Under the pieces are notes generated by a model. It was not told where the DNA came from, did no database searches, and saw nothing but the letters and a program-made list of their open reading frames with translations. A DNA stretch of 64,000 bases from assembly GCF_004920405.1 (NCBI RefSeq), contig NZ_RFLV01000004.1:62001-126000 (forward strand), read 5' to 3'. Positions 2,155 to 52,458 of the stretch are shown here, one piece after another; the first letter of the stretch is position 1; every line of letters starts with the position of its first letter. A program made the position numbers and the translations under genes. Source of the stretch: Pseudomonas leptonychotis (GTDB lineage Bacteria; Pseudomonadota; Gammaproteobacteria; Pseudomonadales; Pseudomonadaceae).

Positions 2155-2204
2155 AACGGGCTGCGCCTTCCCACGGTCACGGGTGCTGCGTCTAGCGGAG
2201 CAGG

Positions 2205-2233
2205 CAAAAAAAGCCCCGGCAGTGTGCCGGGGC
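2205..2233 (-). terminator. Rho-independent terminator after lhpG
   Basis: A 9-bp GC-rich stem (GCCCCGGCA pairing with TGCCGGGGC, 2213-2233) is followed on the minus strand by seven T residues. It lies between two convergent genes. The T tract shows that it mainly serves the minus-strand lhpC-lhpG transcript. Confidence 0.85.
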
Positions 2234-2262
2234 AAAACGAGAACCGCAGACCGTGCCGACAA

Positions 2263-3849
2263 CTATCCGGTCACGGGTTCACGCGTACTTTCGCCATCCA
2301 GCAGGCGGGCAATACCGAGCGGGTTGGCGTTCTGCAGGGCTGGGGGCAGTTGTGCATCCGGGCAGTTCTGGTAGCACACCGGGCGCAGAAAACGCTCGAT
2401 TGCCAAACTGCCAACGGAGGTGCCACGCGCGTCGGAAGTGGCCGGGTAGGGGCCGCCATGCACCATGGCGTCACACACCTCGACCCCGGTGGGGTAGCCG
2501 TTAAGCAACAGGCGTCCGGCCTTCTGTTCCAGCAATGGCAATAGTTCCGCGTATTGCTCAAGGTCGCTCGTTTCGGCGATCAGGGTGGCGGTGAGCTGGC
2601 CATGTAAGCCGTGCAACGCTGCGACTAACTCGGCTCGATCAGCCACCTCAATGACGATGCTGGTCGGGCCGAATACCTCCTCCTGTAGCAGCGCATCGCC
2701 TTCGCGCAGCAAACGGGCATCAGCCTTGAACAGTTGCGGCTGAGCCTGATTGCCAACCTGCGGGCGGCCGCTCAGATGCTGCAGCCCAGGATGGGCATGC
2801 AAGCGTTGCAAGCCGTGGCTGTAACTCTGCAGCGTGCCGGCATTGAGCATGCTCTGTGCCGGTTGCTCGTGCATGCACGCGGCGAAGTCGCGCACAAATG
2901 CGCTGAATTCAGCTGAGCGAATACCGATCACCAAACCTGGATTGGTACAGAACTGACCACAACCGAGCACCACCGAGGCCGTCAGTTCAGTGGCTATCTG
3001 TGCGCCGCGCTGCTTTAGTGCGGCCGGTAACAGCACCACCGGGTTGATGCTCGACATCTCGGCAAACACGGGGATGGGTTGTGGCCGCGCGGCAGCCATG
3101 TCGCACAGCGCTCGGCCACCTTTCAGTGAGCCGGTGAAGCCGACAGCCTGGATGGCTGGGTGCTTGACCAAATCGGCGCCCGCGCCGTTGCCGAAGAGCA
3201 TGTTGAACACGCCCGCGGGCATCGCGGTTTTTTCCGCCGCGCGAATAATCGCATCAGCGACACACTCGGCTGTCGCCATGTGGCCGCTGTGGGCTTTGAA
3301 TACCACGGGGCAACCGGCGGCCAATGCCGCAGCGGTATCGCCGCCAGCCGTCGAGAAGGCTAAAGGAAAGTTGCTGGCGCCAAACACGGCCACCGGGCCG
3401 ACGCCGATCTGATACTGGCGCAGGTCGGTGCGGGGTAACGGCAGGCGTTCGGGTAGCGCCCGGTCGATGCGTGCGCCATAAAAATCGCCACGGCGCAGCA
3501 CCTTGGCGAACAGGCGCATCTGCCCGCTGGTGCGGCCGCGTTCACCTTGAAGGCGCGCGGCAGGCAGGGCGGTTTCGCGGCAGACAATGCTGACAAAATC
3601 GTCGCCCAAACTGTCGATCTCGTCGGCAATGGCCTCAAGAAACTCGGCACGCCGACTGGCGGCGAGCGCGCGAAATTGTGGGTAGGCAGCAGCAGCAGCC
3701 TGGGCGGCGGCGGCCACCTCTTCTGCTGTGGCCTGGTGGAACTGATAGGGCAGCGGCTCGCCGCTGCTGGCGTCGACGCTCTGTTGGGTGGTGCTGCCAG
3801 CAAAGCTGCGGCGCCCGGCGATGTAATGGTGTCCAACGAGCTTGAGCAT
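2263..3849 (-). CDS. lhpG: Alpha-ketoglutarate semialdehyde (2,5-dioxovalerate) dehydrogenase
   Basis: A 528-residue aldehyde dehydrogenase of the alpha-ketoglutarate semialdehyde dehydrogenase branch, which is longer than ordinary ALDHs. The nucleophile is Cys301 in GCGQFCTNPG and the general base is Glu264 in VFAEMSSINP. It should oxidise alpha-ketoglutarate semialdehyde to 2-oxoglutarate, the last step of hydroxyproline catabolism, feeding the TCA cycle. It lies downstream of lhpC on the same strand, separated by about 250 bases that carry a TRAP-permease relic. It ends at a strong terminator (2205-2233). The symbol follows the P. aeruginosa lhp naming. Confidence 0.87.
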   Translation of the reverse strand: MLKLVGHHYIAGRRSFAGSTTQQSVDASSGEPLPYQFHQATAEEVAAAAQAAAAAYPQFRALAASRRAEFLEAIADEIDSLGDDFVSIVCRETALPAARLQGERGRTSGQMRLFAKVLRRGDFYGARIDRALPERLPLPRTDLRQYQIGVGPVAVFGASNFPLAFSTAGGDTAAALAAGCPVVFKAHSGHMATAECVADAIIRAAEKTAMPAGVFNMLFGNGAGADLVKHPAIQAVGFTGSLKGGRALCDMAAARPQPIPVFAEMSSINPVVLLPAALKQRGAQIATELTASVVLGCGQFCTNPGLVIGIRSAEFSAFVRDFAACMHEQPAQSMLNAGTLQSYSHGLQRLHAHPGLQHLSGRPQVGNQAQPQLFKADARLLREGDALLQEEVFGPTSIVIEVADRAELVAALHGLHGQLTATLIAETSDLEQYAELLPLLEQKAGRLLLNGYPTGVEVCDAMVHGGPYPATSDARGTSVGSLAIERFLRPVCYQNCPDAQLPPALQNANPLGIARLLDGESTREPVTG

Positions 3850-3872
3850 AAATGGCTCCTCTGGGTGACGGG

Positions 3873-4073
3873 TCAGAACAATTGCCCCGGTAACCAGGTG
3901 GCGAGACCTGGCAACACGAGGACAAGCAGAAACAGCAACAGTTGAATCAGGATGAACGGCACTACAGCGCGGTACATGTGGCCGTAACGGATGTCGGCGG
4001 GCGCAACGGATTTCAGGTAAAAAATCGATGACGCCAGCGGCGGGGTCAGGGCCGCTGGTGCGTTTGCTGCAGG
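3873..4073 (-). pseudogene. Relic of the C-terminus of a TRAP transporter large permease (DctM)
   Basis: In the gap between lhpC and lhpG the minus strand encodes about 65 residues with the typical end of a DctM subunit: a TPPLASSIFYLKSVAP segment, then a GHMYRAVVPFILIQ segment, then a hydrophobic helix and a stop. Nothing upstream encodes the remaining 350 or so residues; the frame runs into the end of lhpC without homology. I read it as the remainder of a deleted TRAP operon that once served this catabolic cluster. A complete, different DctQM pair is at 20534-22365. Confidence 0.7.
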
Positions 4074-4098
4074 CCGCGATCCAAGCGCAGTGCGCCGA

Positions 4099-5046
4099 TC
4101 AGACGCTGCCCTGTTCGGCCGACCAGGTGGCGTACCACTGACGGAACAGCCTGTACTGGGTCTCGGCGTAGTTACGCTGGGCGTCGCTAAGGGCATCGGT
4201 TGCGTTGAAATGCAGGGCATATTCCTGATCGCCGTTGAGCACCATTAGGTACTTGTAATAGAGCACCAGGTCGGTGCCTTCGTCGAAGGACGACAGCACA
4301 TTCAGCGCCTCGGCCAGCTCCAGAGCACGACGCCGTGCGACGGGATCACCCTTGGCGGCCTTCTTGCTCAGCTCGACCAGTTGCAGCACTTCATGCGGCA
4401 GGGCATTACCTATACCGGTAATGGCGCCGGTCGCACCGCAATTGACGAAGCCATGCACCACCTGGGTATCGACGCCGGCCATCAGGATCACGTCCTTGTC
4501 CTGCGAGGTGATGTGCTCGGCGGCGTAGCGCATGTCAGCCGCGCCGCCGAATTCCTTGAAGCCGATCAGGTTGGCGTATTTGCGGCGCAGCTTGAAGAAC
4601 AGCTGAGCACGGGTGGCGAAGCCGTAATACGGGCTGTTGTAGATCACCGCAGGCAGCTTCGGCGCCGCTTCGAGAATGGCGGCGAAGTGCGCTTCCTGGG
4701 CGGCTGGCGAAGCGCCACGGGACAAAACGCGCGGGATCACCATCAGACCGTGGGCGCCGACCTTGGCCGCGTGGGCGGCGTGGGATACGGCTTCGCGGCT
4801 GTTTACCGCACCGGTGCCGACTATGGTTGGGATGCCGGCTGCGACTAGGCGTGCCACGCCTTCCTGGCGCTCGGCTTCGGTCAGCAGTGGCCAGTCACCC
4901 ATGGAGCCGCAGTAGACTACCGCGCTCATGCCTGCTTCGATCAGCTCGTGGCCCTTGCGTACCAAGGCGTCGAAGTCCGGCTTGCGCTCAGCGGTGCAGG
5001 GGGTCATCAGGGCGGGAATGGTGCCGGTAAAAATGGTGCGGCTCAT
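4099..5046 (-). CDS. lhpC: Delta1-pyrroline-4-hydroxy-2-carboxylate deaminase (DHDPS family)
   Basis: A 315-residue TIM-barrel protein of the dihydrodipicolinate synthase/N-acetylneuraminate lyase family. The Schiff-base Lys164 lies in LIGFKEFGG and Tyr136 in VIYNSPYYG. In place of the DHDPS GTTGE signature it has GSMGDWPLLT, as expected for a non-DHDPS member. It should convert delta1-pyrroline-4-hydroxy-2-carboxylate to alpha-ketoglutarate semialdehyde and ammonia, with the product used by lhpG downstream. A perfect palindrome TTCGTATACGAA lies about 31 bases upstream (5077-5088) and is a probable GntR operator. An AGGAGG-like ribosome site precedes the ATG. Confidence 0.87.
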   Translation of the reverse strand: MSRTIFTGTIPALMTPCTAERKPDFDALVRKGHELIEAGMSAVVYCGSMGDWPLLTEAERQEGVARLVAAGIPTIVGTGAVNSREAVSHAAHAAKVGAHGLMVIPRVLSRGASPAAQEAHFAAILEAAPKLPAVIYNSPYYGFATRAQLFFKLRRKYANLIGFKEFGGAADMRYAAEHITSQDKDVILMAGVDTQVVHGFVNCGATGAITGIGNALPHEVLQLVELSKKAAKGDPVARRRALELAEALNVLSSFDEGTDLVLYYKYLMVLNGDQEYALHFNATDALSDAQRNYAETQYRLFRQWYATWSAEQGSV

Positions 5047-5076
5047 GGGTTTGCCTCCTGGGCAGAATTAAAGTAT

Positions 5077-5088
5077 TTCGTATACGAA
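5077..5088. promoter_or_regulatory. Palindromic operator upstream of lhpC
   Basis: TTCGTATACGAA is a perfect 12-bp palindrome in the lhpC leader. The same core occurs before the ABC binding-protein gene (10989-11000) and before the GntR gene itself (16702-16713). A GntR/FCSD repressor site is the simplest reading. Confidence 0.65.
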
Positions 5089-5185
5089 GATAAATAGCCG
5101 TAGTTAGCCATCTGTTTCCCGTGGTTGGGCGTAACGCCCGGTTCGTTGCACCGGCGAGCCGGCAGTTCTAAATCCTCAACACGCC

Positions 5186-6223
5186 TTAGCGCTTCAGCTC
5201 CACTGGCCAGGTATCGGACAAGCGATAGCCCTGCGGCCAGGGGTCATCAGGGTCAAGCAGGTGCTGGTGGGTGCCGGTGATCCAGGCCCGGCCAGACAGG
5301 CAGGGGATGATCGCCGGGCGCCCAGCGACTTCGCTCAGGCTGTCGATTCGGCAATGGAACTCGGAATCAATAATCGAGCGGCCGATAAAGCGTTCGCCGA
5401 CCTGCAATTGACCTCTGGCATGCAATACCGCCATGCGCGCTGAGCAACCGGTGCCCGTGGGCGAGCGGTCGACTTTGCCGGGACGAATCACCACCGCGTT
5501 GGCGGCGCTCAAAATCCCCTCTTGCCGTTGCAATGGGCCGGCCAGTTGGCAAAAAGAAATATGCGCCCAGTCCGGGTTGAGTGGATGGACGAAGCCTAGC
5601 TGCTCGTTGGCTGCGCGGGTGATCTTAAGCCCACAGGCGGCCAGGTCGGCCGCTTCGTCAGCGCCGAGTGAGAAGCCCAGCGCCTGGGCGTCGGCAATGA
5701 CGAAACTGTCGCCGCCATAGGCGGTGTCCACCTGTAGTGAGCCAATACCATCGACCTCAATCCAGGCATCCAGCCGATCGGCGAAAGACGGCACGTTCTT
5801 TATTTCGACCCGTTCGACTTTGCCGTTGCGGCACTGCGCCACGGCTTCGATCAGCCCGCCGGGGGCTTCCAGAATCAGATGGGTTTGCGGCTCGGTCATG
5901 GGCAGGATGCCGCTTTCCAGCAGCACCGTGGCAACGCATAACGAGTTGGAGCCCGACATCGGCGGCGTATCGGCCGGTTCCATGATGATCCAGGCCATCT
6001 GCGCGCGTGGATCTTTGGCTGGTACCAGTAAGTTGACGTGGCGGAACACCCCGCCGCGCGGTTCATTCAGCATGAAGTTGCGCAGGGTTTGATCTTCGGC
6101 GATCCAGCGCGATTGCGCCCACAGCGTATCGCCCGGTGGCGGTGCGACGCCGCCGACTATCACGTCGCCGACTTCGCCTTCGGCATGGCAACTGACCACA
6201 TGTATAACTTTGCTCGAGCGCAT
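5186..6223 (-). CDS. Proline racemase superfamily protein with Ser/Thr in place of both catalytic Cys
   Basis: A 345-residue proline racemase-fold protein. In proline racemases and 4-hydroxyproline epimerases the two acid/base residues are cysteines in MCGH and DRSPCGTG. Here the first motif is MSGSNS (Ser90) and the second DRSPTGTGC (Thr256, with a Cys four residues later). The Thr resembles trans-3-hydroxy-L-proline dehydratases, but those keep the first Cys. A two-thiol racemase mechanism is therefore unlikely; a dehydratase or another hydroxyproline/imino-acid reaction is more plausible. It is the last gene of the ABC transporter/aconitase-X operon, 9 bases after the ATPase gene. The exact substrate is unknown. 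Confidence 0.75.
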
Positions 6224-6232
6224 GCTGCTCTC

Positions 6233-6955
6233 CTAAAGCACGGATTTCAGAAAGTCGGCCGTTTCCGCGTATTGCGGGCTGACCAGCACTTGCTCGGGGG
6301 TACCGATCTCGTGCACCAGGCCGTTGCGGAAGAACGCCACACGGTCCGAGACTTCACGGGCGAAGCTGATCTCATGGGTCACCAGCACCATGGTCATGCC
6401 GTCTTCGGCGAGCATGCGCATAGTGTCCAGCACCTCGCCCACCAACTGCGGGTCGAGAGCGCTGGTGGCCTCGTCAAACAGCATGTAATCCGGTGACATG
6501 GCCAAGGCGCGGGCGATGGCCATACGTTGCTGCTGACCGCCAGAGAGCTTGCCGGGGAACACCTTGAGCTTGTCCGCCAGGCCCACGTGGGTCAGCTGGC
6601 GCACGGCGATGTCCTCAGCCTCAGCTCGGCTTTGGCCGAGTACTTTGCGCGGTGCCAGCATGACGTTCTCCAGCACGGTCAGGTGCGGAAACGCATTCCA
6701 CTGTTGGAAGACGATACCGATCTTCTGCCGCAGGCGATTGAGGTCGGTGGCTTTGTTGTGCACCTCGGTACCGTCGACGCGAATGCTGCCTTGCTGGATG
6801 ACTTCCAAGCCGTTGATGCACATCAACAGGGTCGATTTGCCGGAGCCGGAGCCACCGATGATGGACACCACTTCGCCTTTGTTCACCGTCAGGCTCACGC
6901 CCTTGATGACATCGAGGTCGCCGAAGGATTTGTGTACGTTTTCGATCTCAATCAT
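6233..6955 (-). CDS. Polar amino acid ABC transporter ATP-binding protein
   Basis: A 240-residue ABC ATPase of the HisP/GlnQ type. Walker A is GGSGSGKST, the signature is [15 protein letters not shown] and Walker B is [12 protein letters not shown]. The ATG at 6955 was chosen because [12 protein letters not shown] is the normal family start; it overlaps the permease stop by 8 bases, indicating translational coupling. With the two permeases and the periplasmic protein it forms an importer, most likely for hydroxyproline or a related amino acid, given the surrounding lhp genes. Confidence 0.9.
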
Positions 6956-7604
6956 TTTCCTGCCACCTTTTCTCCAGTTGATTGCCCAAGCGGGCCACCA
7001 CCAGGCTGATGAAGTAGTAGATAAGCCCGGCGATGCACAGCACCAGCAGAGGCTCTTGGATGCGTGTAACGATGATTTGCGAGGCGCGTAGCAGCTCGAC
7101 AATGCCGATCCACATGACCAGGGCGGTGTCTTTCATTACCGACAAGGCCAGGTTGAGCCAGCCAGGGAAGGCGATGCGGGTGGCCATCGGCATGACGATG
7201 TAGCGCAGGTCTTGCCAGTAATTCAGGCCCAGTGAGCGTCCTGCCCGGCGCACGTTGGGTGATACCGCCAGCACGCCGCTACGCACGATCTCGGTGCAGT
7301 AGGCGGCGGCATACACGCCGAGTACGGCGCAGGCGACTGAGAACGCGCTCCAGTCCAAACCGGCAATGCTTTTCAGTGAGTTGAACAAGACAAACTGGAT
7401 CAGCAACGGCACGCTGCGAAAGGCATCCAGCACCCAGGCCAGCGGCAATGTGGCGCGTGGCAAGGTAGCGCGCAGCAGGCCGCAGATAACCCCGCCGGCG
7501 GTGCCCAGCAGCATGGCCCACAAGGTCAGCAGGATGGTGGTCCAGGCCCCTTGCAGCAGAAACAGCAGGTCGGTCGAGGTGATGCTGGTAGTCAACATGG
7601 CCAT
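6948..7604 (-). CDS. Amino acid ABC transporter permease (second)
   Basis: A 218-residue inner-membrane permease of the HisM/GlnP class with about five transmembrane segments. The EAA-like loop is near [15 protein letters not shown]. It overlaps the ATPase gene and starts 7 bases after the first permease stop. It would form a heterodimeric channel with the 7612-8277 product. Confidence 0.88.
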
Positions 7605-7611
7605 TACCCTC

Positions 7612-8277
7612 CTAGTAGCGGAACAGGCGCCAGCCGAGTAGGCGGGCGACCAGTACGATGGCTTTGGCGATCAGGTAGTAAAGAACCGCCGCGAGTGCGA
7701 AGTACTCGAAGGTGCGGAAGGTCTTCACGTTGTAACCCTGGGTGACCCCGGTAAGGTCGTTGTTGAGGCCGACAATGACGCCCAGTGAGGTCATCAATAC
7801 CGCCCAGACCATCTGATTGGTCAGTGGGTAGAACACGATGCGCAGCAACTGCGGGATGATCACCAGCTGGTAGGTCTTGAATGCGCTCATGCCCAACGAG
7901 CGGGCCGCACGCATTTGCGTCTCCGGCACGGCCTTGAGCCCGCCGCGAAAGTTCTCCGCCAGATAGCCCGCATTGTTGAAGGTGATCCCTGCGAGCAATG
8001 CCGCCCAGGAACTGATGTGAATGCCGAACGAGCCGAGGCCGAAGTACAGCAAGTAGATCTGAAACAGCGACGGCGTGTTGCGCGCCACTGATACCCAGGC
8101 GTTGCCGAAGCCGCGGGCTAAAGGGTTTTTTGTTTGCCGCATCAGGGTCAGACATAGGGCGATTAACACGCCGAAGATCATCGACAGGGCGGCGGTTTCG
8201 AAGGTGACCCACGCGCCGCCGAGCATATCGGGCAGCGCCTTGAAGGCCGAGCGCCAGTGGAAGCTGTAATCGAACAT
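7612..8277 (-). CDS. Amino acid ABC transporter permease (first)
   Basis: A 221-residue HisQ/GlnP-class permease. The conserved cytoplasmic loop is AARSLGMSAFKTYQLVIIPQ, which contacts the ATPase. It starts 3 bases after the aconitase-X stop codon, so enzyme and transporter are translated from one message. Specificity cannot be read from the sequence; context points to hydroxyproline isomers. Confidence 0.88.
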   Translation of the reverse strand: MFDYSFHWRSAFKALPDMLGGAWVTFETAALSMIFGVLIALCLTLMRQTKNPLARGFGNAWVSVARNTPSLFQIYLLYFGLGSFGIHISSWAALLAGITFNNAGYLAENFRGGLKAVPETQMRAARSLGMSAFKTYQLVIIPQLLRIVFYPLTNQMVWAVLMTSLGVIVGLNNDLTGVTQGYNVKTFRTFEYFALAAVLYYLIAKAIVLVARLLGWRLFRY

Positions 8278-8280
8278 TGC

Positions 8281-10047
8281 TCAATAACCTCCTTGGCGGG
8301 ATGTTTGGCTCAACCAATTCGGCAGATCGCCGCTGGCTTGGCCGTTACAGGCTGCATCGACGCACGCGGCCAGGCCTGCGAAGTGCACGCGGCGGCCGAC
8401 CAGGCCCGGTGCGTAGTGGGCGTATTTGCCAGAGTTGGTCATCAGGTTTTTGGCGCTGATCGGGAGTACCGGCTCACCGAGCATGCACCAGCAGGTGTCC
8501 GTGACAAATTGCACGCCGAAAGCCTCCAGCGCAGCGACATGGCCGGCGTCTCGCGCTTGCTCAAGCACGTGGCGGCCGCAGGTGATCACCACTGCTACAT
8601 CTGGGTGTTTATCTTTGCCCACGCAGAGCCGGGCTAACGCCGCACATTCACTTAACGAGAAATGCGGATTGCCCAGCGACACCAGGCCGAGGTCTGGGCT
8701 GCTGGCGCTGTTCAGTTCGTGCCAGCTGGCAAGCAGGTCTTGCGCGCTAATATCGAGCTGGCGCTGCGCTGCCATGCCGCCCAGAGCCTGTTCGCAGGTG
8801 GCGGCTTCCGGGGTCACGCCGACGATATGGAACATCGGCGCGCCTGAGGTGGTGGCGAAGGCCGCACCGAAGGCTTTGAGATCATCGCGGCTCGGCTGCG
8901 CCTGCTGCAAACCGCAGATCACGGGGATCTGGCTGCCGGCCAGGGCGCCGATGTGGTAACCGAGCAGCGGGTAGAAGGCGTCGTCCACTTCGCCCAGCGC
9001 CGGCACGTTGATCTGTAACGTGGCCAGCCGTCCTGTGGCCAGGTGACAGCCGATCAGCGGCGCCCGGCCAGTCAGGGCAATGCAGATGTCGAGAAAGTCG
9101 GGGTATTTCTGGGTGCGGGCCGCCAGCACGCTATTGGCAAATACCACGGCGTTGGACTCGGCCCAGACCACCTGATCACCGGCTTCTGGTGCGCTGTCGA
9201 GCAGGTAGGGCGCGCAGGTAAAGCTCAGTTGGGCGCCCATCGCCATATAGGCATCACCCAAGGCGCTGGCCGGCTCGCCAAAGGCCGGGTCAATGCCTTG
9301 GGCGCGCCAGCGTCGTTGGTCTACAGAGATGGCGTTGAGCGTCGTCGGCACCCGCACCTTCGCGCCCCACGCAACCAATTGCTCGGCAAAGCGCAGGCTC
9401 GCCGGGCCGGTATAGATGCAGCCATCGATATGCGCCTGGCTGATGTCGATCAATTCGCGAGCACCTTGCAGTTCCGCCATGCGCAAAACGATCTGCATGG
9501 CGACTTGTGCGGCTTTACCGTGGTCGCCTGCGAGCACGGCGTGGTCGTAGTCGGTCAGCATCAGGTCGCTGTGCTGAGGTGATGTTTCAGCTGTCAGTGA
9601 CGACGCGGGTTGGTCGTCTCTAGGTGCTGTGACGTAGGCGTTGATCTGGCTGCCGTCGACGCGCACAAAGGTGCAGTCGTGCAGGCGTTCGAATGCCGCT
9701 TGGCCGATACAGATAACCGGCAGGCTGCGCTCGAACAGCGCCTGAGCAATCAGAACGCCCAGGCTGAGAATTTCTTCGGGATGCGCCACCACTAGAGCGG
9801 CGGGTGCGTGCCCGTTAAGAATCAGTTCCAGCAATACACTGCTGCCGGTGCAGGAGCCACGGCCGCTGGGAATGGCCAGCACACACCCGCTGATGACGTT
9901 ACCGTTTAAAGGGTGATGGCGGTCGATCACCTCACCGCTGAAGGGGTCGACCCCGCCCCAGAAACTCAGGCCAACATCGGCATACAGCAAATCGCCTTGC
10001 GCGCGGCCACTGACCAGGCTGCGTGCTTGCATAGAAAAATCAGGCAT
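8281..10047 (-). CDS. Aconitase X-type dehydratase (DUF126-DUF521 fusion), probable cis-3-hydroxy-L-proline dehydratase
   Basis: A 588-residue fusion. The N-terminal 150 or so residues are the DUF126 swivelling small-subunit domain (GRAQGDLLYADVGLSFWGG, then SGRGSCTGS). The remainder is the DUF521 large aconitase-like domain with likely cluster or metal cysteines in DTCWCMLGE and ITCGRH. Fused aconitase X proteins have been characterised as cis-3-hydroxy-L-proline dehydratases that give delta1-pyrroline-2-carboxylate. The ATG at 10047 was chosen over an upstream in-frame TTG because GGGAG lies 7 bases before it. It sits between the binding-protein and permease genes, which fits uptake coupled to catabolism. 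Confidence 0.8.
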   Translation of the reverse strand: MPDFSMQARSLVSGRAQGDLLYADVGLSFWGGVDPFSGEVIDRHHPLNGNVISGCVLAIPSGRGSCTGSSVLLELILNGHAPAALVVAHPEEILSLGVLIAQALFERSLPVICIGQAAFERLHDCTFVRVDGSQINAYVTAPRDDQPASSLTAETSPQHSDLMLTDYDHAVLAGDHGKAAQVAMQIVLRMAELQGARELIDISQAHIDGCIYTGPASLRFAEQLVAWGAKVRVPTTLNAISVDQRRWRAQGIDPAFGEPASALGDAYMAMGAQLSFTCAPYLLDSAPEAGDQVVWAESNAVVFANSVLAARTQKYPDFLDICIALTGRAPLIGCHLATGRLATLQINVPALGEVDDAFYPLLGYHIGALAGSQIPVICGLQQAQPSRDDLKAFGAAFATTSGAPMFHIVGVTPEAATCEQALGGMAAQRQLDISAQDLLASWHELNSASSPDLGLVSLGNPHFSLSECAALARLCVGKDKHPDVAVVITCGRHVLEQARDAGHVAALEAFGVQFVTDTCWCMLGEPVLPISAKNLMTNSGKYAHYAPGLVGRRVHFAGLAACVDAACNGQASGDLPNWLSQTSRQGGY

Positions 10048-46478: not shown

Positions 46479-46858
46479 TCAGATCAACCTGCTCCCAGTC
46501 CGCTTAAGCTGCCACCGCAGCGTCTGCCTGGTCCAACGCAAAAGAGCGGAAACGCACAATTAATTGCGTTCCTCTCCGCGGCTTCCAGGCTCATACCCAT
46601 ACCACTGACTTGCAGTTGTACTCTAGAGCTAATGGCCGGTGCACCGACCCGCCGGACAGCTTCTGCACCCGTTTCAACGCCTGAATCCAACACATAAGTG
46701 CAACGCTGACCCCTGAATATACGGAATCGCCCCTAGTTTCATAGCCATATCTGAGAGTCCGCTTTGGGTCGACTTCAGTCGGATCCCCTACACTGCCCGG
46801 CAGAATCGCGCGCCGATCTGGCCGTCCGTGCCGGACGCTGGTGGTGAAGGGGCTGAAA
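46479..46858. other. Intergenic region with duplicated trmK leader
   Basis: This 380-base gap is noncoding. Its last 65 or so bases (from about 46,792) align without gaps to the leader of intact trmK (from about 51,699), including the ribosome-site region AAGGGGCTG. Confidence 0.6.
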
Positions 46859-47065
46859 TTGAACGAGTGGGCATTGTTCAAGCGTCTGGAGTGCGTAGTC
46901 GCGCATGTGCCGGCAGGTGCGCGGCTGGCCGATATTGGCTCTGATCACTGCTACCTACCTGTGGCATTGATGTGCCGCGGCGTGATCACGGTGGTGGCCG
47001 GCGAGGTGGCGTTGACGCCGTTTCACGCGGCTGAACGATCCGTGCGCGAGAGCGAGCTGGAATAA
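46859..47065 (+). pseudogene. Truncated copy of the trmK 5' end
   Basis: These 68 codons match the N-terminal 69 of trmK at 51763-52458, including VPAGARLADIGSDH, YLPVALM and GEVALTPFHAAERSVRES. One codon is missing internally. Homology ends abruptly at ESELE, where a TAA follows. Both copies start at an equivalent TTG; the later Met of intact trmK (51784) is Lys here, which supports the TTG as the start in both. SAM-binding motif I remains but the catalytic part is gone, so it cannot be a functional methyltransferase. Confidence 0.85.
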
Positions 47066-47097
47066 CTAGGGACAGACCACAATTAATCCTCAAACCT

Positions 47098-47126
47098 CAC
47101 CACCACCACCACCACCACCACCACCA
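47098..47126 (-). repeat. Trinucleotide (CAC)n tract
   Basis: Nine and two-thirds uninterrupted CAC units, read GTG/GGT on the minus strand, start 16 bases after the stop of the StpA-like gene. It is a simple-sequence repeat prone to slippage, in noncoding sequence. Confidence 0.9.
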
Positions 47127-47141: not shown

Positions 47142-48419
47142 CTACCGTCCCACATACCCCTCAGCCAACGCACAGAAAAATTCCACGTATTGCCTATGCC
47201 CACCACAAAAAATCACATCCAGTTTTAGCGGGTCTGCGCTGTCGCTGATGCCTGCGAAGGCTGGCCAGGGTGCCAGGCTGGGGTCGTTTGTGCAGCATTG
47301 CAGGTGCGCCAGATCGATGCCGGGGCGGGCGACTTCGCCGTTGCTGCTGTCGATATAGGCCAGGGTGTTGTTGCTGTCGAAGGCTTCGCCGAGTCGCTGC
47401 ACCAGGCTAAGAAAGCCGCGGTCGCTGCCGCCGCGCAGTTGTTGCTGTTGGCCGTCTAGGGTGCGGGTGTTGGAGGTGACGGTGTCGCCGACGCCGAGGA
47501 TGCGCGGCATCAGCGCCGGGTCGAAATGCTCGCGGGCCAGTTGCAGTAGCGCGCCCTGGTCGCGCGGGGCCTGGCGGGCGTTGAAGTGTTCGCCCAGCGG
47601 GTAGTGCCCGGTGCGTTGCTGGTAGTAGTGGTTGAGGATCAGCAGCACGCCGACTTCCTTGATCGCGCCCTTGAGCATGAACTGGAAGTCGGTGCTGCCG
47701 GCGTCATCGCCATCGCTGTATTTGAGCCGTTCGTGGCCCTGGGCGTCGTGCCCGAGATTGGGCGCGTAGTGGACGAAGAAGGCGTCCACCAGGTCAGCCT
47801 GGCTGGCTTGCTGTTGCAAGGCGCTCATAAAGTCGGCGACCGCTTGCTGCAATTGCCGGTAAAGCGTCGGTTGGGCACTGAAGCGTTGGTAGAGGCTATT
47901 GAGGTTGAGGGTCGGCGAGGCGAGGTTGTCCAGCACGCTGGCACCGACCAGGGCGGTGATCTCGGCCGCGGCGAGGGCGTAGGGCGGGGCGGCCAGCAGT
48001 TCGGTGAGAAAGCGCGTGGCCTTGTCCGGCACGCCTTGCAGAAAGGCCAACTCGGCTGCGCTGACGCCTGGATGGCTGACCCTGGCGAAGCGATCCTGCA
48101 ACTGCACGCCACCGGCGGCCAGCCCCGGCAGGTAAAGGCCCTGTTCGCGGGCATGGTTGGGGTCGTCGAAGGCTTTGTCGATTATGTCGTTCACTCCGCG
48201 GATGCCGATATGCTCGCCGTTGGTCAGTACCTGGAAACACCCGGCCAGACGCGCCGCGGCCTGGACATAGCGGCGCTCGATGGTGCGGGTCAGTGGGTCG
48301 CGCACCAGATCCATGCAGACGCCGTCCAGGTCCTGGATGATCAGCAGTTTGTCGGTCGCGAGAAGGGATTCGAGCAGGCGCGGGTGGTCGAGGGAGAAGC
48401 GTTGGTTGTGGGTAGTCAT
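47142..48419 (-). CDS. stpA: Glucosylglycerol 3-phosphatase (StpA/GgpP-like)
   Basis: A 425-residue protein closely resembling cyanobacterial StpA in length and motif. The HAD-like nucleophile motif is IIQDLDGVCMDLV near residues 26-38, followed by DPLTRTIERRYV; later segments include GVGDTVTSNTRTLDG. StpA dephosphorylates glucosylglycerol phosphate in osmolyte synthesis. No glucosylglycerol-phosphate synthase gene is in the window, so it is either an orphan or serves a synthase elsewhere. It is transcribed alone. Confidence 0.8.
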   Translation of the reverse strand: MTTHNQRFSLDHPRLLESLLATDKLLIIQDLDGVCMDLVRDPLTRTIERRYVQAAARLAGCFQVLTNGEHIGIRGVNDIIDKAFDDPNHAREQGLYLPGLAAGGVQLQDRFARVSHPGVSAAELAFLQGVPDKATRFLTELLAAPPYALAAAEITALVGASVLDNLASPTLNLNSLYQRFSAQPTLYRQLQQAVADFMSALQQQASQADLVDAFFVHYAPNLGHDAQGHERLKYSDGDDAGSTDFQFMLKGAIKEVGVLLILNHYYQQRTGHYPLGEHFNARQAPRDQGALLQLAREHFDPALMPRILGVGDTVTSNTRTLDGQQQQLRGGSDRGFLSLVQRLGEAFDSNNTLAYIDSSNGEVARPGIDLAHLQCCTNDPSLAPWPAFAGISDSADPLKLDVIFCGGHRQYVEFFCALAEGYVGR

Positions 48420-48675: not shown

Positions 48676-48804
48676 TTAATCGTGAGCATGGCCGTGGCTT
48701 TCGACTTCGGACTGGGTTTCCGGCTCGTCGGCGCCACATGCCGACAGTAGGCCAAACAGGCAAACCAACAGCAGGGAGCGGGTCTGGGTAGCTGTGATTT
48801 TCAT
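48676..48804 (-). CDS. Small lipoprotein with His-rich C-terminus
   Basis: A 42-residue lipoprotein. After MKITATQTR and a hydrophobic core (SLLLVCLFGLL) comes the lipobox LSAC, then an acidic linker and the tail VESHGHAHD, a likely metal ligand cluster. AGGAA lies 6 bases before the ATG at 48804. It is the distal gene of the HupE operon, 72 bases after the anchor-protein gene and behind a hairpin. The mature peptide would be about 20 residues on the outer or inner membrane. Metal binding is inferred from the histidines and neighbours. Confidence 0.72.
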   Translation of the reverse strand: MKITATQTRSLLLVCLFGLLSACGADEPETQSEVESHGHAHD

Positions 48805-48838
48805 CGTCTATTCCTTTTGATTTCGATCATGAATGTAG

Positions 48839-48872
48839 AAGCCCCCAGTGCCTGATGACGCTGGGGGCTTTC
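48839..48872 (-). terminator. Hairpin between the anchor-protein and lipoprotein genes
   Basis: AGCCCCCAG and CTGGGGGCT pair around a 14-base loop directly after the anchor-protein stop region. There is only a short T tract (TTCT) on either strand, so partial termination (attenuation) before the lipoprotein gene is likely. Confidence 0.6.
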
Positions 48873-48876
48873 TGCC

Positions 48877-49539
48877 TTAAATAACTCGTTTAACGCTCAG
48901 GTACTCGCCTTTGGTCTTGAGCGTGATGGTCACATCGCTGTTGCTGCGGTTGCGCCAGAACCAGCCATGGGTGCCGTCGAAGATGGCGGTGAATTCGCCT
49001 TTGTCGCCCTTGACCTGCTTGCCCTTGCTGTAGCTGTGGAAGTAGCCATTCGGGCCGTTGTAGGGCTCGCCATGGGTGTCGTGGTTGACCGGAGCACCAT
49101 CGGTTGTCCATTCGTAGCTGACCGTGGTCTTGTCCAGCATTTCCAGTTTGATTTCACTGGCCTCGCCCGGCTTCAGTGTGACGGTCACTTCATCGGACTT
49201 CAGGGCTGGCTTAGGCTCAGCTACAGGCTCTACAGCAGGTACTGCTGCAACGGGCTCTTGAGCCACAGGCTGAACAGGCGCAGGGGCTTCTACGACTGGG
49301 GCAGTCGCGGGTTGAATAGCTGCATCCGCTACCGCTTCTTCGGTCAGGGTTTTCTTTATTTCGCCCATCTGGGTCAGGCCGAGTAAGCGACCAGCCCCCG
49401 TTGGGTCGATGGCGTACTCCGACGGCATCACCACGGTGACTAGCAAGACCGCAGCAACAACTATGGCAATAACGGTGGAGCGCAGCAGTTGGCGGCTGGT
49501 AGGCAATTCGCTTTGGGTCGGAAGCTTGGTATTGAACAT
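48877..49539 (-). CDS. Membrane-anchored periplasmic protein of the HupE operon
   Basis: A 220-residue protein often annotated only as a transmembrane anchor protein. One transmembrane helix (about residues 21-41, STVIAIVVAAVLLVTVVMP) is followed by a Pro/Ala/Val/Glu-rich linker (about 70-112) and a C-terminal beta-type domain containing His residues in NHDTHGEPYNGPNGYFHSYS. It starts 12 bases after hupE. It may present metal to, or sense metal for, the permease. No biochemical function is known to me. Confidence 0.7.
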   Translation of the reverse strand: MFNTKLPTQSELPTSRQLLRSTVIAIVVAAVLLVTVVMPSEYAIDPTGAGRLLGLTQMGEIKKTLTEEAVADAAIQPATAPVVEAPAPVQPVAQEPVAAVPAVEPVAEPKPALKSDEVTVTLKPGEASEIKLEMLDKTTVSYEWTTDGAPVNHDTHGEPYNGPNGYFHSYSKGKQVKGDKGEFTAIFDGTHGWFWRNRSNSDVTITLKTKGEYLSVKRVI

Positions 49540-49551
49540 GCGGAGAATTCC

Positions 49552-50289
49552 TTATTGAGAGACGATCAGGCCGGTGAGCTGGTAACCCATCAAGAGGAAA
49601 CCGGCGCTCATCATGGCGACGTTGGCGGTGTAGGCATGACGCCAGAAGCTGGCGGTGCGTCGCCAGTAGCCCATGACAATCAGGATGGCGCTCAAGGCCA
49701 GAAGCTGGCCGATTTCGACGCCGACATTAAAGGCGATCAGGTTGGTGATCAGGCCGTCTGCCGAGATCTCATATTCCTGAATCTTGGTCGCCAGACCAAA
49801 GCCATGCAGCAAACCGAAAATCAGCGTGGCCGCTTGGGTGTTCGGCTGGTGGCCGAACCAGCGCTGAAATGCACCTAGGTTATCCAGCGCCTTGTACACC
49901 ACCGAGAAACCGATGATGGCGTCGATCACATAGGAGCTGATGTTGATTTCCGCCAGTACGCCCAACAACAGCGTCACGGTGTGACCCACGGCGAACAGCG
50001 TGACGTAGAGCCCCACGTCCTTCAGGCGGTAGAGAAAGAAGATCACCCCGAAGAGGAACAGCAGGTGGTCGTAGCCGGTGATCATGTGCTTTGCGCCCAT
50101 GTAGATGAACGGCAGCACCATCACCCCGGAGCTTTCCTGGATAAAGCCCTTGTCGCCCTCGGCAACGGCGTGGGCCAGTGCGTCAGGCATGCCGAGAAAC
50201 AGCAATGCCGTGAACAGCAGCAACAGTAGTAACGAGCGATTCGGGCGCACGGCAGATACGTCCATTGCGCCCATAGATAGCGAATGCAT
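49552..50289 (-). CDS. hupE: HupE/UreJ-family metal permease
   Basis: A 245-residue integral membrane protein with a signal-like first helix and six or seven further segments. HupE-type histidine motifs are KHMITGYDHLLFLFG, AVGHTVTLLLG and GLLHGFGLA. The family is associated with Ni(II)/Co(II) import. AGGA lies 8 bases before the ATG at 50289. It is in an operon with a DUF2946-like gene upstream and the anchor-protein gene downstream, opposite an InrS/CsoR-type repressor. Confidence 0.82.
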   Translation of the reverse strand: MHSLSMGAMDVSAVRPNRSLLLLLLFTALLFLGMPDALAHAVAEGDKGFIQESSGVMVLPFIYMGAKHMITGYDHLLFLFGVIFFLYRLKDVGLYVTLFAVGHTVTLLLGVLAEINISSYVIDAIIGFSVVYKALDNLGAFQRWFGHQPNTQAATLIFGLLHGFGLATKIQEYEISADGLITNLIAFNVGVEIGQLLALSAILIVMGYWRRTASFWRHAYTANVAMMSAGFLLMGYQLTGLIVSQ

Positions 50290-50336
50290 GGTTGAGTCCT
50301 AAATTAAAGGGGGCTTGGGCCGCATAGCAGCCCGTT

Positions 50337-50696
50337 TCAGAGCACGAATGTGGGGCGTGGTGGCCGCTCGATCAGGAAGATCGGACTGGGAGGAATGGAG
50401 TAGCGAGGGGTTTCTATCGGCTGCGCACGCTCTGGCAGCGTGCTTATGCTCAGCAGCGAGGTCAGGTGTGGTGTTTCATGCAGATGGTCGGCGGTCAGCG
50501 GCGAGTGGCAGTGATCCCCGTACGCAGCACAGGCCAGCGTCTCGTCACCATGCGCATGTGAATGAGCACCGTCATTGCCGCTCAAGGAAGGCTGGCTCGA
50601 TCCCATAAACAGCGCAGAGGTATGTCCAGCCCAAGCCAGCAATATGGCTAGAGCAAGGGCAAAAATCACCTTGGTACTGATGGGATTGCTGAGCAT
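50337..50696 (-). CDS. DUF2946/CzcI-like small His-rich exported protein
   Basis: A 119-residue protein. It has an N-terminal hydrophobic segment (VIFALALAILLAWAGHTSA), a His/Asp-rich middle (NDGAHSHAHGDET and GDHCHSPLTADHLHETPHL) and a Pro-rich tail ending IERPPRP. This plan resembles the DUF2946/CzcI proteins next to metal-resistance genes. It is the first gene of the operon, and its start is 61 bases from the G-tract operator. Metal binding in the periplasm is inferred. Confidence 0.6.
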   Translation of the reverse strand: MLSNPISTKVIFALALAILLAWAGHTSALFMGSSQPSLSGNDGAHSHAHGDETLACAAYGDHCHSPLTADHLHETPHLTSLLSISTLPERAQPIETPRYSIPPSPIFLIERPPRPTFVL

Positions 50697-50756
50697 ATTG
50701 TGGTTCTTTCGATGCCTAAGCGGATGGCTTTTCTGGAGGGGTGATCGGTTTGACCG

Positions 50757-50775
50757 TATCCCCCGGGGGGGGATA
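50757..50775. promoter_or_regulatory. G-tract dyad operator of the CsoR/RcnR/InrS class
   Basis: TATCCCCC followed by GGGGGGGGATA forms an 8-bp dyad with a 3-base centre (TAT-C5-G8-ATA). CsoR/RcnR-family repressors recognise such C/G tracts flanked by AT steps. It lies midway between the divergent DUF2946-like and repressor genes, so both can be controlled by it. Confidence 0.75.
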
Positions 50776-50796
50776 GCATGCGAGCGTAATTCATCG

Positions 50797-51102
50797 ATGC
50801 ACGAGACTCAAGGCATGAGCGATCACGAACACGGCCACCAGCACCAAAGTCATGGCGACATCATCAAAAGGTTGAAGCGTGCGGAGGGTCACCTGCGCAG
50901 CATCGTCACCATGATCGAAGACAGCCGAGCCTGCGTGGACATCGCCCAGCAGCTGCATGCCGTGGAAAAAGCCGTTTGCCAGGCCAAGCGTGTGCTTATC
51001 CAAGACCATATCGACCACTGCCTGGAACATACGGTCGAAGCACTTGCGATAGGCGAGCGCGCATCACTCGAAGATTTCAAGCAAATCACCAAGTACCTCT
51101 GA
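50797..51102 (+). CDS. Metal-sensing repressor, CsoR/RcnR (DUF156) family, InrS-like
   Basis: A 101-residue all-helical regulator. The N-terminal His-rich segment is DHEHGHQHQSHGD. The predicted metal triad is Cys46 (SRACVDIA), His71 and Cys75 (QDHIDHCLEH); the 25- and 4-residue spacings match CsoR/InrS (Cys-His-Cys) rather than RcnR (Cys-His-His). With the N-terminal histidines this most resembles the Ni(II) sensor InrS. Such repressors release DNA on metal binding. Start ATG 50797 or 50815; neither has a strong ribosome site. Confidence 0.85.
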   Translation: MHETQGMSDHEHGHQHQSHGDIIKRLKRAEGHLRSIVTMIEDSRACVDIAQQLHAVEKAVCQAKRVLIQDHIDHCLEHTVEALAIGERASLEDFKQITKYL

Positions 51103-51135
51103 GGCGGCTCAACACTAACGGCGAGGAGATGCAGG

Positions 51136-51486
51136 ATGGCATGGCTAATCAGCAAATATTTCCTGACCGCAGTCGTGGTCGTTGTGGTTTCGGAGATCGC
51201 GAAGCGTAGTGACAAATTTGGGGGACTTATTGCGGCGTTGCCCCTGATCACCGTATTGACGCTTATCTGGCTAAACGTTGAAAACCAGCCAGCAGAAAAG
51301 ATCGCTAACCATGCGTGGTACACCTTCTGGTACGTGTTGCCCACCTTGCCGACGCTACTCGCGTTCCCCATGCTTCTGACCCGCTTCGGCTTCTGGCCAG
51401 CTCTGCTGATCTACATCGTCGCTACCGCTGCTTGTTTCGGTTTGTTTGCCTTGTGCGTCCGTCGTTTTGGCATCGAACTGCTATAG
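51136..51486 (+). CDS. DUF3147-family membrane protein
   Basis: A 116-residue protein with four predicted transmembrane helices and the SEIAKRSDKFGGLIAALPL segment characteristic of DUF3147. GAGGAG lies 7 bases before the ATG at 51136. It follows the repressor gene by 33 bases and is probably cotranscribed, so it may belong to the same metal response. The function is unknown. Confidence 0.75.
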   Translation: MAWLISKYFLTAVVVVVVSEIAKRSDKFGGLIAALPLITVLTLIWLNVENQPAEKIANHAWYTFWYVLPTLPTLLAFPMLLTRFGFWPALLIYIVATAACFGLFALCVRRFGIELL

Positions 51487-51762
51487 GCCAATTAAGTACA
51501 TCGCCCCTTGTCTGCTTATGCGTTGAAGGGCATGTGGCGCTGTAATGTCTACTAATTGGCCGACTTCTGCCTATCCCCACCGGCAGTTATGGGTCGATAA
51601 CAGCCCATTACTAAGTTTCGTTATTAGTGCTCCCCTGAAGCCTAGGCTCGGGGCGGATGCATAGCGCTGGTCGCAGAAATTTGCCATACACGGCGTTGCT
51701 CGACAAAATCGCGGCCCGATTTGGCCCAATGGCCGGACGTCGATGCTAAGAAGGGGCTGGAG

Positions 51763-52458
51763 TTGAATGAGCTGACATTGTCCATGCGCCTGGAACGTGT
51801 AGCGGCGCATGTGCCGGCCGGGGCGCGGCTGGCTGATATTGGTTCGGACCACGCTTATCTGCCGGTAGCATTGATGCGCCGTGGTGCCATCGAAACTGCG
51901 GTGGCGGGGGAGGTGGCTTTGACGCCGTTCCACGCGGCCGAACGCAGCGTGCGCGAGAGCGACTTGAGCCAACTCATCAGCGTGCGCCTGGCAGATGGTT
52001 TGGCGGCGATTGAGACGGGCGACGCAATCACGGCAATCAGCATTTGCGGAATGGGCGGCGAGCGGATTCGCGACATTCTGGACAGCGGCAAGGCGCACCT
52101 GAGTGGTCAGGAACGTTTGATCCTGCAGCCCAACGGCGGCGAACAGCCACTGCGCCAATGGCTGATGGACAATGGCTACCGCATCCTCTGCGAGGAAGTG
52201 CTGCGAGAGAATCGCTTTGCCTACGAAATCATCGTTGCCGAACGCTCTGGCCCGGTGCTGTACAGCGCCGAAGAGCTGTACTTTGGCCCGCTGCAGATGC
52301 AGGCACGTAGCCCTGCGTTCCTGGCCAAATGGCAACGCATGCTGCGTCTGAAGCAGCAGACCCTGGCCGACTTCGCTCACGCGCGGCAGGCTGTGCCCGA
52401 GGAGAAGGTGCAGAAGGTTGCCCAGCAAGCGCAGTGGATTATTCAGCTGCTGGCGTAA
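51763..52458 (+). CDS. trmK: tRNA (adenine(22)-N1)-methyltransferase
   Basis: A 231-residue class I SAM methyltransferase. Motif I is ARLADIGSDHAYLP, the catalytic-region motif SICGMGGERI is intact, and the C-terminal helices include the LKQQTLADFA segment. TrmK makes m1A22 in tRNA. The start is set at TTG 51763 (LNELTLSMRLERV), 8 bases after AAGG, and is supported by the equivalent TTG in the truncated copy at 46859. ATG 51784 is the alternative. Confidence 0.85.
   Translation: MNELTLSMRLERVAAHVPAGARLADIGSDHAYLPVALMRRGAIETAVAGEVALTPFHAAERSVRESDLSQLISVRLADGLAAIETGDAITAISICGMGGERIRDILDSGKAHLSGQERLILQPNGGEQPLRQWLMDNGYRILCEEVLRENRFAYEIIVAERSGPVLYSAEELYFGPLQMQARSPAFLAKWQRMLRLKQQTLADFAHARQAVPEEKVQKVAQQAQWIIQLLA

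Follow-up and report, generated by a model that had tools for sequence, protein, structure and literature searches.

A probable nickel-derepressed metal-detoxification cassette with a HupE_UreJ_2 membrane protein and an NreA/MreA-type repressor in Pseudomonas leptonychotis

Organization of the Locus

The window analysed here is a stretch of 64,000 nucleotides from Pseudomonas leptonychotis (contig NZ_RFLV01000004.1 of assembly GCF_004920405.1, a genome of 4.39 Mb in 29 contigs). Six genes occupy its positions 48676 to 51486, four on the minus strand and two divergent from them on the plus strand. The minus-strand genes encode, in their reading order, a small histidine-rich exported protein, a HupE-type membrane protein, a membrane-anchored protein and a small lipoprotein, with gaps of 47, 12, and 72 bases between them. 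The plus-strand genes encode a repressor of the CsoR/RcnR family and a small membrane protein of DUF3147 type. All six genes, as well as a dyad with C/G tracts in the divergent gap, were confirmed at the coordinates proposed in an initial annotation of this DNA.

Related loci were compared in two samples. The first contains the best 80 of at least 425 confirmed relatives in GTDB genomes, so that its counts lean to close relatives; most are from Pseudomonadota, and several distant ones, including the Desulfobacterota-, Planctomycetes-, Blastocatellia-, and Zixibacteria-type members, come from metagenome bins, whose contigs are possibly misplaced. The second is a survey of 199 genomes of the window's genus.

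The Repressor and its Operator

The repressor gene (50815..51102, plus strand) encodes 95 amino acids from the ATG at 50815, or 101 from the ATG at 50797, and its product is the sole match to PF02583 in the genome (77.6 bits against a cut-off of 22.8, E 9.6e-22). The metal-binding residues first named for it, Cys46, His71, and Cys75, are correct for the 101-residue reading and become Cys40, His65, and Cys69 in the 95-residue one, where they match the ligands Cys38, His63, and Cys67 of the nickel-responsive NreA of Mesorhizobium; His68 likewise matches NreA His66. The two proteins are identical in 60 of 95 alignment columns (NreA from PMC12724321). Within a comparison set, identity to the window repressor was 59/93 for NreA, 55/89 for NcrB of an Enterobacter plasmid, 19/85 for E. 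coli RcnR, and 17/89 for FrmR, and a small FastTree tree, weakly supported within the branch, groups the repressor with NreA/NcrB and apart from RcnR/FrmR. InrS, to which the protein had been likened, is indeed its best match among solved structures (23/71 identical, counted by eye), but NreA is far closer. Because NreA and NcrB are so much nearer than InrS, RcnR, or FrmR, its sequence assigns the repressor to the NreA/NcrB/MreA branch of the CsoR/RcnR family. A plasmid-copy repressor that is 100% identical to it over 95 amino acids carries the AMRFinder name mreA. In this branch, NcrB is reported to repress ncrABC, and its loss raises nickel resistance (PMC8545094). All 33 divergent repressors of related loci keep the Cys-His-His-Cys (C-H-H-C) set. 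An earlier count of a repressor in 42/80 loci was dropped, as 5/44 matches lacked these residues; a C-H-H-C repressor is present in 39 loci.

The dyad (50757..50775), TATCCCCCGGGGGGGGATA, has the form TATCC-N9-GGATA and lies inside the spacer of a predicted repressor promoter on the plus strand (50750..50779; TTGACC, 18 nucleotides, TAGCAT). The published NreA operator, TATCCtctcgggggGGATA, is situated between TTG and TAGNAT promoter elements (PMC12724321), so the window dyad carries the same half-sites in the same setting. TATCC-N9-GGATA occurs at three places in the 4.39-Mb genome, with C/G tracts only at the window dyad. With at most one mismatch, the dyad is found in 31 of the 33 relatives with a divergent repressor, as opposed to 28 of 660 base-shuffled regions (shuffling kept the base composition but not C or G runs); the remaining two, L025 and L026, keep the TATCC half and have a degenerate second half. 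The repressor promoter is not significant alone, with 1 promoter-like site against a shuffle mean of 1.6; similar hexamers stand at the same position in most flanks of the divergent-repressor relatives. A scan by consensus for a promoter of the minus-strand operon gave nothing convincing. Further NreA-type operator copies occur next to major facilitator superfamily (MFS) genes in L042 and L043 and also in L022-L027, where the copy separates the MFS gene from chrB and is roughly 3 kb or farther downstream from hupE; for this reason the same repressor may control MFS or chromate genes in those loci.

The HupE_UreJ_2 Protein

The second minus-strand gene (49552..50289) encodes a membrane protein of 245 amino acids, which matches PF13795 (HupE_UreJ_2) with 187.9 bits against a cut-off of 24.5 (E 1.2e-55) and is the only such match in the genome at E <= 0.001. 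The protein had been introduced as a HupE permease, and the HupE type is borne out; the family, however, is PF13795 and not PF04955, to which the known nickel/cobalt importers belong. PF04955 gave no match to it at a maximum E-value of 10, although HMMER filtering discards the majority of hits beyond roughly 0.1. Conversely, UreJ of another genome of the genus scores 202 bits with PF04955 and matches PF13795 weakly. PF13795 matches occur in 129 genomes, most of which have weak ones only; the single weak one inspected is a PF04955 protein.

The HupE/UreJ signature has been described as HPXXGXDH (PMC7689651), whereas the window protein reads HMITGYDH, and its Met69 is invariant in 57 aligned HupE_UreJ_2 proteins. 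Also invariant in these 57 are His40, His68, Asp74, His75, His103, and His162. As His40 follows an AxA-type signal cleavage site, the mature protein may start with a histidine. A search of solved structures with the HupE profile returned nothing credible. Family resemblance supports nickel or cobalt as the substrate, not a direction of transport. The Rhizobium HupE is said, in the title of a reference, to be a diffusion facilitator for nickel uptake.

The Anchored Partner and the Small Envelope Proteins

The third minus-strand gene (48877..49539) encodes a protein of 220 amino acids with one N-terminal hydrophobic segment and a conserved C-terminal part; relatives bear the NCBI name 'transmembrane anchor protein'. 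Positive residues precede the single hydrophobic segment, which suggests that the bulk of the protein is periplasmic. Its gene stands directly 3' of hupE in 80/80 loci. Across the genus, 28 strong PF13795 places were found in 26/199 genomes. The anchor gene adjoins 26/28 and is missing at two, and 23/28 have a PF02583 gene no more than 1.6 kb away. The anchored protein matches no Pfam or NCBIfam family, 59 relatives gave weak, scattered matches only, and its profile found nothing credible among solved structures. Conserved in the alignment are Trp144, His156, Tyr170, and the stretch GxHGWFWRNR (189-198). A neighbor cluster seen in 29 loci antisense to hupE and the anchor gene was spurious and was ignored. 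A second setting of the family is seen at L097 (1154-2152) and L098 (4170-5411), divergent HupE_UreJ_2 genes without an anchored partner, which sit in both genomes between a gene of 302 or 303 amino acids and one of 738 amino acids.

The exported protein (50337..50696, minus strand; 119 amino acids) is marked in the window and across its alignment by the motifs HxH and DHxHET and by a C-terminal ERPPR. It has no credible match in Pfam or NCBIfam. The earlier label 'DUF2946-like' was not sustained: the window protein does not match DUF2946 (PF11162), and 3 of 36 aligned members do so weakly, at a best E of 0.012. A CzcI-like identity was also set aside, since no CzcI family is among its NCBIfam matches. 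Matches to the exported protein occur in 52/80 loci, and 47/80 pass a strict filter for adjacency to hupE; this filter retains two doubtful frames (L060, L085) and drops likely ones, including those of L028-L031 and L086, which were lost because of the hupE start used. The lipoprotein (48676..48804, minus strand; 42 amino acids) has the lipobox LLSAC and a C-terminal HGHAHD tail in its translation. Relatives are present in 17/80 loci, and 17/17 end in HGH[AS]H[DE]. Given these counts, the small histidine-rich parts are optional. The gap between the anchor and lipoprotein genes (48805-48876) is predicted to form a strong hairpin (-25.7 kcal/mol over the gap), from a fold without a control; similar hairpins exist in this gap in several relatives, and a possible role is that of an attenuator.

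The DUF3147-type protein (51136..51486, plus strand; 116 amino acids) matches NCBIfam NF006751 with 188.8 bits against a cut-off of 154, and Pfam DUF3147 at E 0.021, under the cut-off. Matches occur in 7/80 loci, some of them (L028-L031) perhaps false frames.

Genomic Company and Mobility

Of the related loci, 54 extend 8 kb or more to either side; an exporter cluster lies within 8 kb of the cassette in 42 of these and within 3 kb in 37. The clusters counted are MFS, resistance-nodulation-division (RND), RcnA, other NicO, P-type ATPase, and cation diffusion facilitator (CDF) proteins; they are BLAST clusters named from one identified representative each, and the count was set against no control of random loci. 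The representatives include NicO/PRK10019 'nickel/cobalt efflux transporter', a CusA/CzcA-type RND protein, and DmeF, together with an MFS protein under the TIGR00900 cut-off. In the genus survey, NicO is present in 16/24 module-bearing genomes and 33/175 others (Fisher p = 3.5e-6), and PF02583 in 24/24 and 91/175, respectively (p = 7e-7), with kinship ignored in both comparisons. A NicO gene lies within 3 kb of hupE at 14/28 genus places (by eye).

A relative of the HupE protein is encoded on 460 of 72,556 plasmid records. Plasmid copies stand beside ncc genes in Cupriavidus, nirA/ncrA-ncrB-rcnA in Enterobacter, NreA-RcnA in NT-25, an RND gene in Acinetobacter and, elsewhere, chrBA. A Roseovarius plasmid copy is near an MFS gene and the copper-type multicopper oxidase and SCO genes. 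A chrA cluster is beside the cassette in 16/80 loci.

In P. leptonychotis, the cassette is preceded by a 5' fragment of trmK and followed downstream by the full trmK, with 77% identity over 267 columns between 46794-47055 and 51697-51962, as if the stretch between them had been inserted beside trmK together with a second 5' end. In L099 (G014; 2204-8642), a locus of the same genus, the cassette also adjoins trmK, in the opposite orientation, and two other genes separate a first from a second copy of the exported-protein gene. The trmK-bounded stretch of the window further includes a gene of glucosylglycerol 3-phosphatase type, a salt-tolerance enzyme (47142-48419; TIGR02399, 476.9 bits against a cut-off of 365.5), which found no counterpart among the other loci retrieved. 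A run of CAC/ACC trinucleotides (about 47097-47126) separates it from the trmK fragment.

Relation to Known Systems

The nickel-tolerance operon nreAXY of Mesorhizobium shares with the window a repressor of the same branch, the C-H-H-C residues, and a 19-bp TATCC...GGATA operator in the promoter spacer. In nreAXY, however, two efflux genes share an operon with the repressor gene (PMC12724321), whereas in the window it is divergent from the HupE-anchor operon and no known exporter belongs to the locus. The ncrABC/nirABCD plasmids of Klebsiella and Enterobacter encode NcrB, 55/89 identical to the window repressor, and have, farther upstream on the plasmid, genes for a hypothetical protein, HupE, and the anchor, but there the repressor gene is flanked by nirA/ncrA and rcnA, at a distance of about 4 kb from this hupE set. 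In P. putida KT2440, mreA-mrdH is by description similar in having an NreA-like MreA and mobile elements on either side of a metal locus (PMC3056050); MrdH, the partner there, joins an RcnA to a CzcB domain and, unlike the window protein, is not HupE_UreJ_2. The rcnR-rcnA-rcnB system of E. coli follows the same plan, with a divergent metal repressor, a membrane nickel/cobalt exporter, and a periplasmic partner; it differs in that RcnR is only 19/85 identical, RcnA is a NicO protein, and RcnB is annotated as periplasmic and is not a HupE partner.

A further parallel by description is a nickel-induced cluster of Sphingobium sp. ba1, which contains a divergent NreA-like gene, NreB, a small histidine-rich ORF, an RND pump, and a HupE/UreJ gene; the latter was the gene most up-regulated by nickel, and its authors suggest a role in accumulation (PMC5557971). 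The divergent NreA-like gene, the histidine-rich ORF, and the HupE/UreJ gene resemble those of the window, whereas NreB and the RND pump are additional, and the passages of that report that describe the cluster do not mention an anchored partner.

These precedents bear on the initial description of the module as undescribed. With respect to regulation it does not stand, as the NreA, NcrB, and MreA repressors are known, a plasmid copy is already labeled mreA, and the Sphingobium cluster is nickel-induced. It stands for the HupE-anchor pair, to which a literature search that covered few subscription journals, and is thus no proof of absence, found no function assigned. The regulatory half is therefore known, and the HupE_UreJ_2-anchor cassette is a widespread, mobile variant within nickel/cobalt resistance, uncharacterised as far as we could find.

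Proposed Function and Alternatives

The order of the genes, their families, the conserved operator, the near-constant pairing of HupE with the anchor, and the company of exporters are read directly from sequence; the identity of the metal, the way it travels, and what the anchored and small proteins do are our inference. At low metal, the NreA/MreA-type repressor would occupy the 19-bp C/G operator and shut off its own promoter, probably together with the divergent one. Once Ni(II) in the cytosol, or perhaps also Co(II), Zn(II), or Cu, filled the Cys40-His65-Cys69 site, the repressor would leave the DNA. The exported histidine-rich protein, HupE_UreJ_2, its anchored partner, and the histidine-tailed lipoprotein would then be produced. 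HupE_UreJ_2 could move nickel or cobalt out of the cytoplasm or keep it at the membrane, the anchored domain would be its obligate periplasmic partner, and the small histidine-rich proteins may buffer metal in the envelope.

The nickel-type repressor and the frequent nickel/cobalt export pumps among the neighbors favor a role in metal survival, and the cassette probably aids survival of excess metal rather than import. On balance, we favor the reading of the locus as a horizontally moving detoxification cassette, derepressed by nickel (and perhaps cobalt) through ordinary regulatory logic, with HupE_UreJ_2 as the putative exporter. One of the two explanations in the initial annotation, export or sequestration together with histidine-bearing envelope proteins, fits the NreA-type repressor and operator, the exporter company, and the published nickel induction of a similar cluster (PMC5557971). 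The other, an unusual repressor logic, is not needed, because the HupE protein belongs to PF13795 rather than to the PF04955 family of known importers.

Several observations weigh against this preferred reading. Characterised HupE/UreJ proteins take up nickel or cobalt (PMC7689651, PMC2667541), and no experiment on any HupE_UreJ_2 protein was found in the literature. The likeness to the Sphingobium HupE is one of description, and the membership of that protein in PF13795 is presumptive. None of the six genes encodes a known exporter by Pfam or NCBIfam, and the genome has no NicO match (NreB, RND, CDF, and P-type pumps were not searched genome-wide). The P-type ATPase representative among the neighbors looks copper-type, not nickel-type, and in 10/54 full-flank loci no exporter and no repressor is close by. 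The pairing with the anchor also has exceptions: at the two anchor-less HupE places (G021, G130) the proteins are divergent and longer and the gene setting is a different one, and in G093 an anchor gene occurs with no match to HupE. Finally, P. putida CsoR/MreA binds Cu(II) best, with a Kd of 5.5 uM as against 125 uM for Ni(II) (PMC11978298).

This last preference also speaks for a system of the same logic that responds chiefly to copper, zinc, or cadmium, or to more than one metal, rather than to nickel, as do the induction by Cd, Ni, Zn, and Co in earlier work cited in the same report and the multicopper oxidase and SCO genes near the Roseovarius copy. Neighbors of the NreB/NcrA, RcnA, Ncc, and DmeF types and the nickel response of the close relative NreA (PMC12724321) point back to nickel, and we regard a different main metal as unlikely, though it is the foremost of the rival explanations. 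Slightly less credit is given to sequestration, in which HupE_UreJ_2 and the histidine-bearing proteins would hold excess nickel in the membrane and periplasm, as the Sphingobium authors proposed for theirs. Conserved histidines in the exported, anchored, and lipoprotein components agree with it, as does the nickel accumulation upon heterologous expression of hupE or ureJ in E. coli (cited in PMC5557971); a polytopic HupE_UreJ_2 with invariant histidine and aspartate residues nevertheless argues for transport over bulk binding, and the histidine-rich parts, which were not found in many loci, are optional.

True import of nickel or cobalt, loading nickel for urease or another enzyme with release of the repressor by metal as an unusual positive feedback, would accord with the activity of the characterised HupE/UreJ proteins and with the urease alpha gene present in the genome. 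It appears improbable, as the protein is a PF13795 member with an altered signature and no PF04955 match, exporters often adjoin the cassette, uptake switched on by excess metal would be harmful, and NreA, a close regulator that has been tested, switches efflux on (PMC12724321). Least credible of all is a mere passenger that rides mobile elements beside chromate and mercury genes with no metal role of its own. The chrA clusters near the cassette and the 460 plasmid records are what such a passenger would leave, but operator conservation and near-constant gene pairing persist over wide distances, and therefore indicate selection for function under the metal repressor.

Within the detoxification reading, a more specific proposal is tentative, and we hold it somewhat short of even: HupE_UreJ_2 and the anchored protein may together make up a two-part exporter of metal that has gone unrecognised in Gram-negative bacteria. 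In it, a relative of nickel importers would work outward, or load a periplasmic sink, and pass metal through the conserved histidine-bearing anchored domain to the small histidine-rich carriers. Such an exporter would be distinct from the RcnA/NicO, NreB, CDF, P-type, and RND pumps, and could serve as the main output of a nickel-type repressor. That may be so in P. leptonychotis, as, unlike in most relatives, no known pump stands beside the cassette and the genome has no NicO; for the same reason, a role as a helper of RcnA cannot hold here.

Significance

If these proposals are true, neither the transporter of a common mobile metal cassette nor its partner protein has been characterised. A reader of the database name 'HupE/UreJ family protein' would expect a nickel importer, and if the HupE_UreJ_2 branch is a part of detoxification, hundreds of genes on plasmids and chromosomes bear a misleading name. 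In P. leptonychotis, the cassette lies beside the only CsoR-family repressor of a genome without a NicO (RcnA) gene, so that its function could be tested free of that background.

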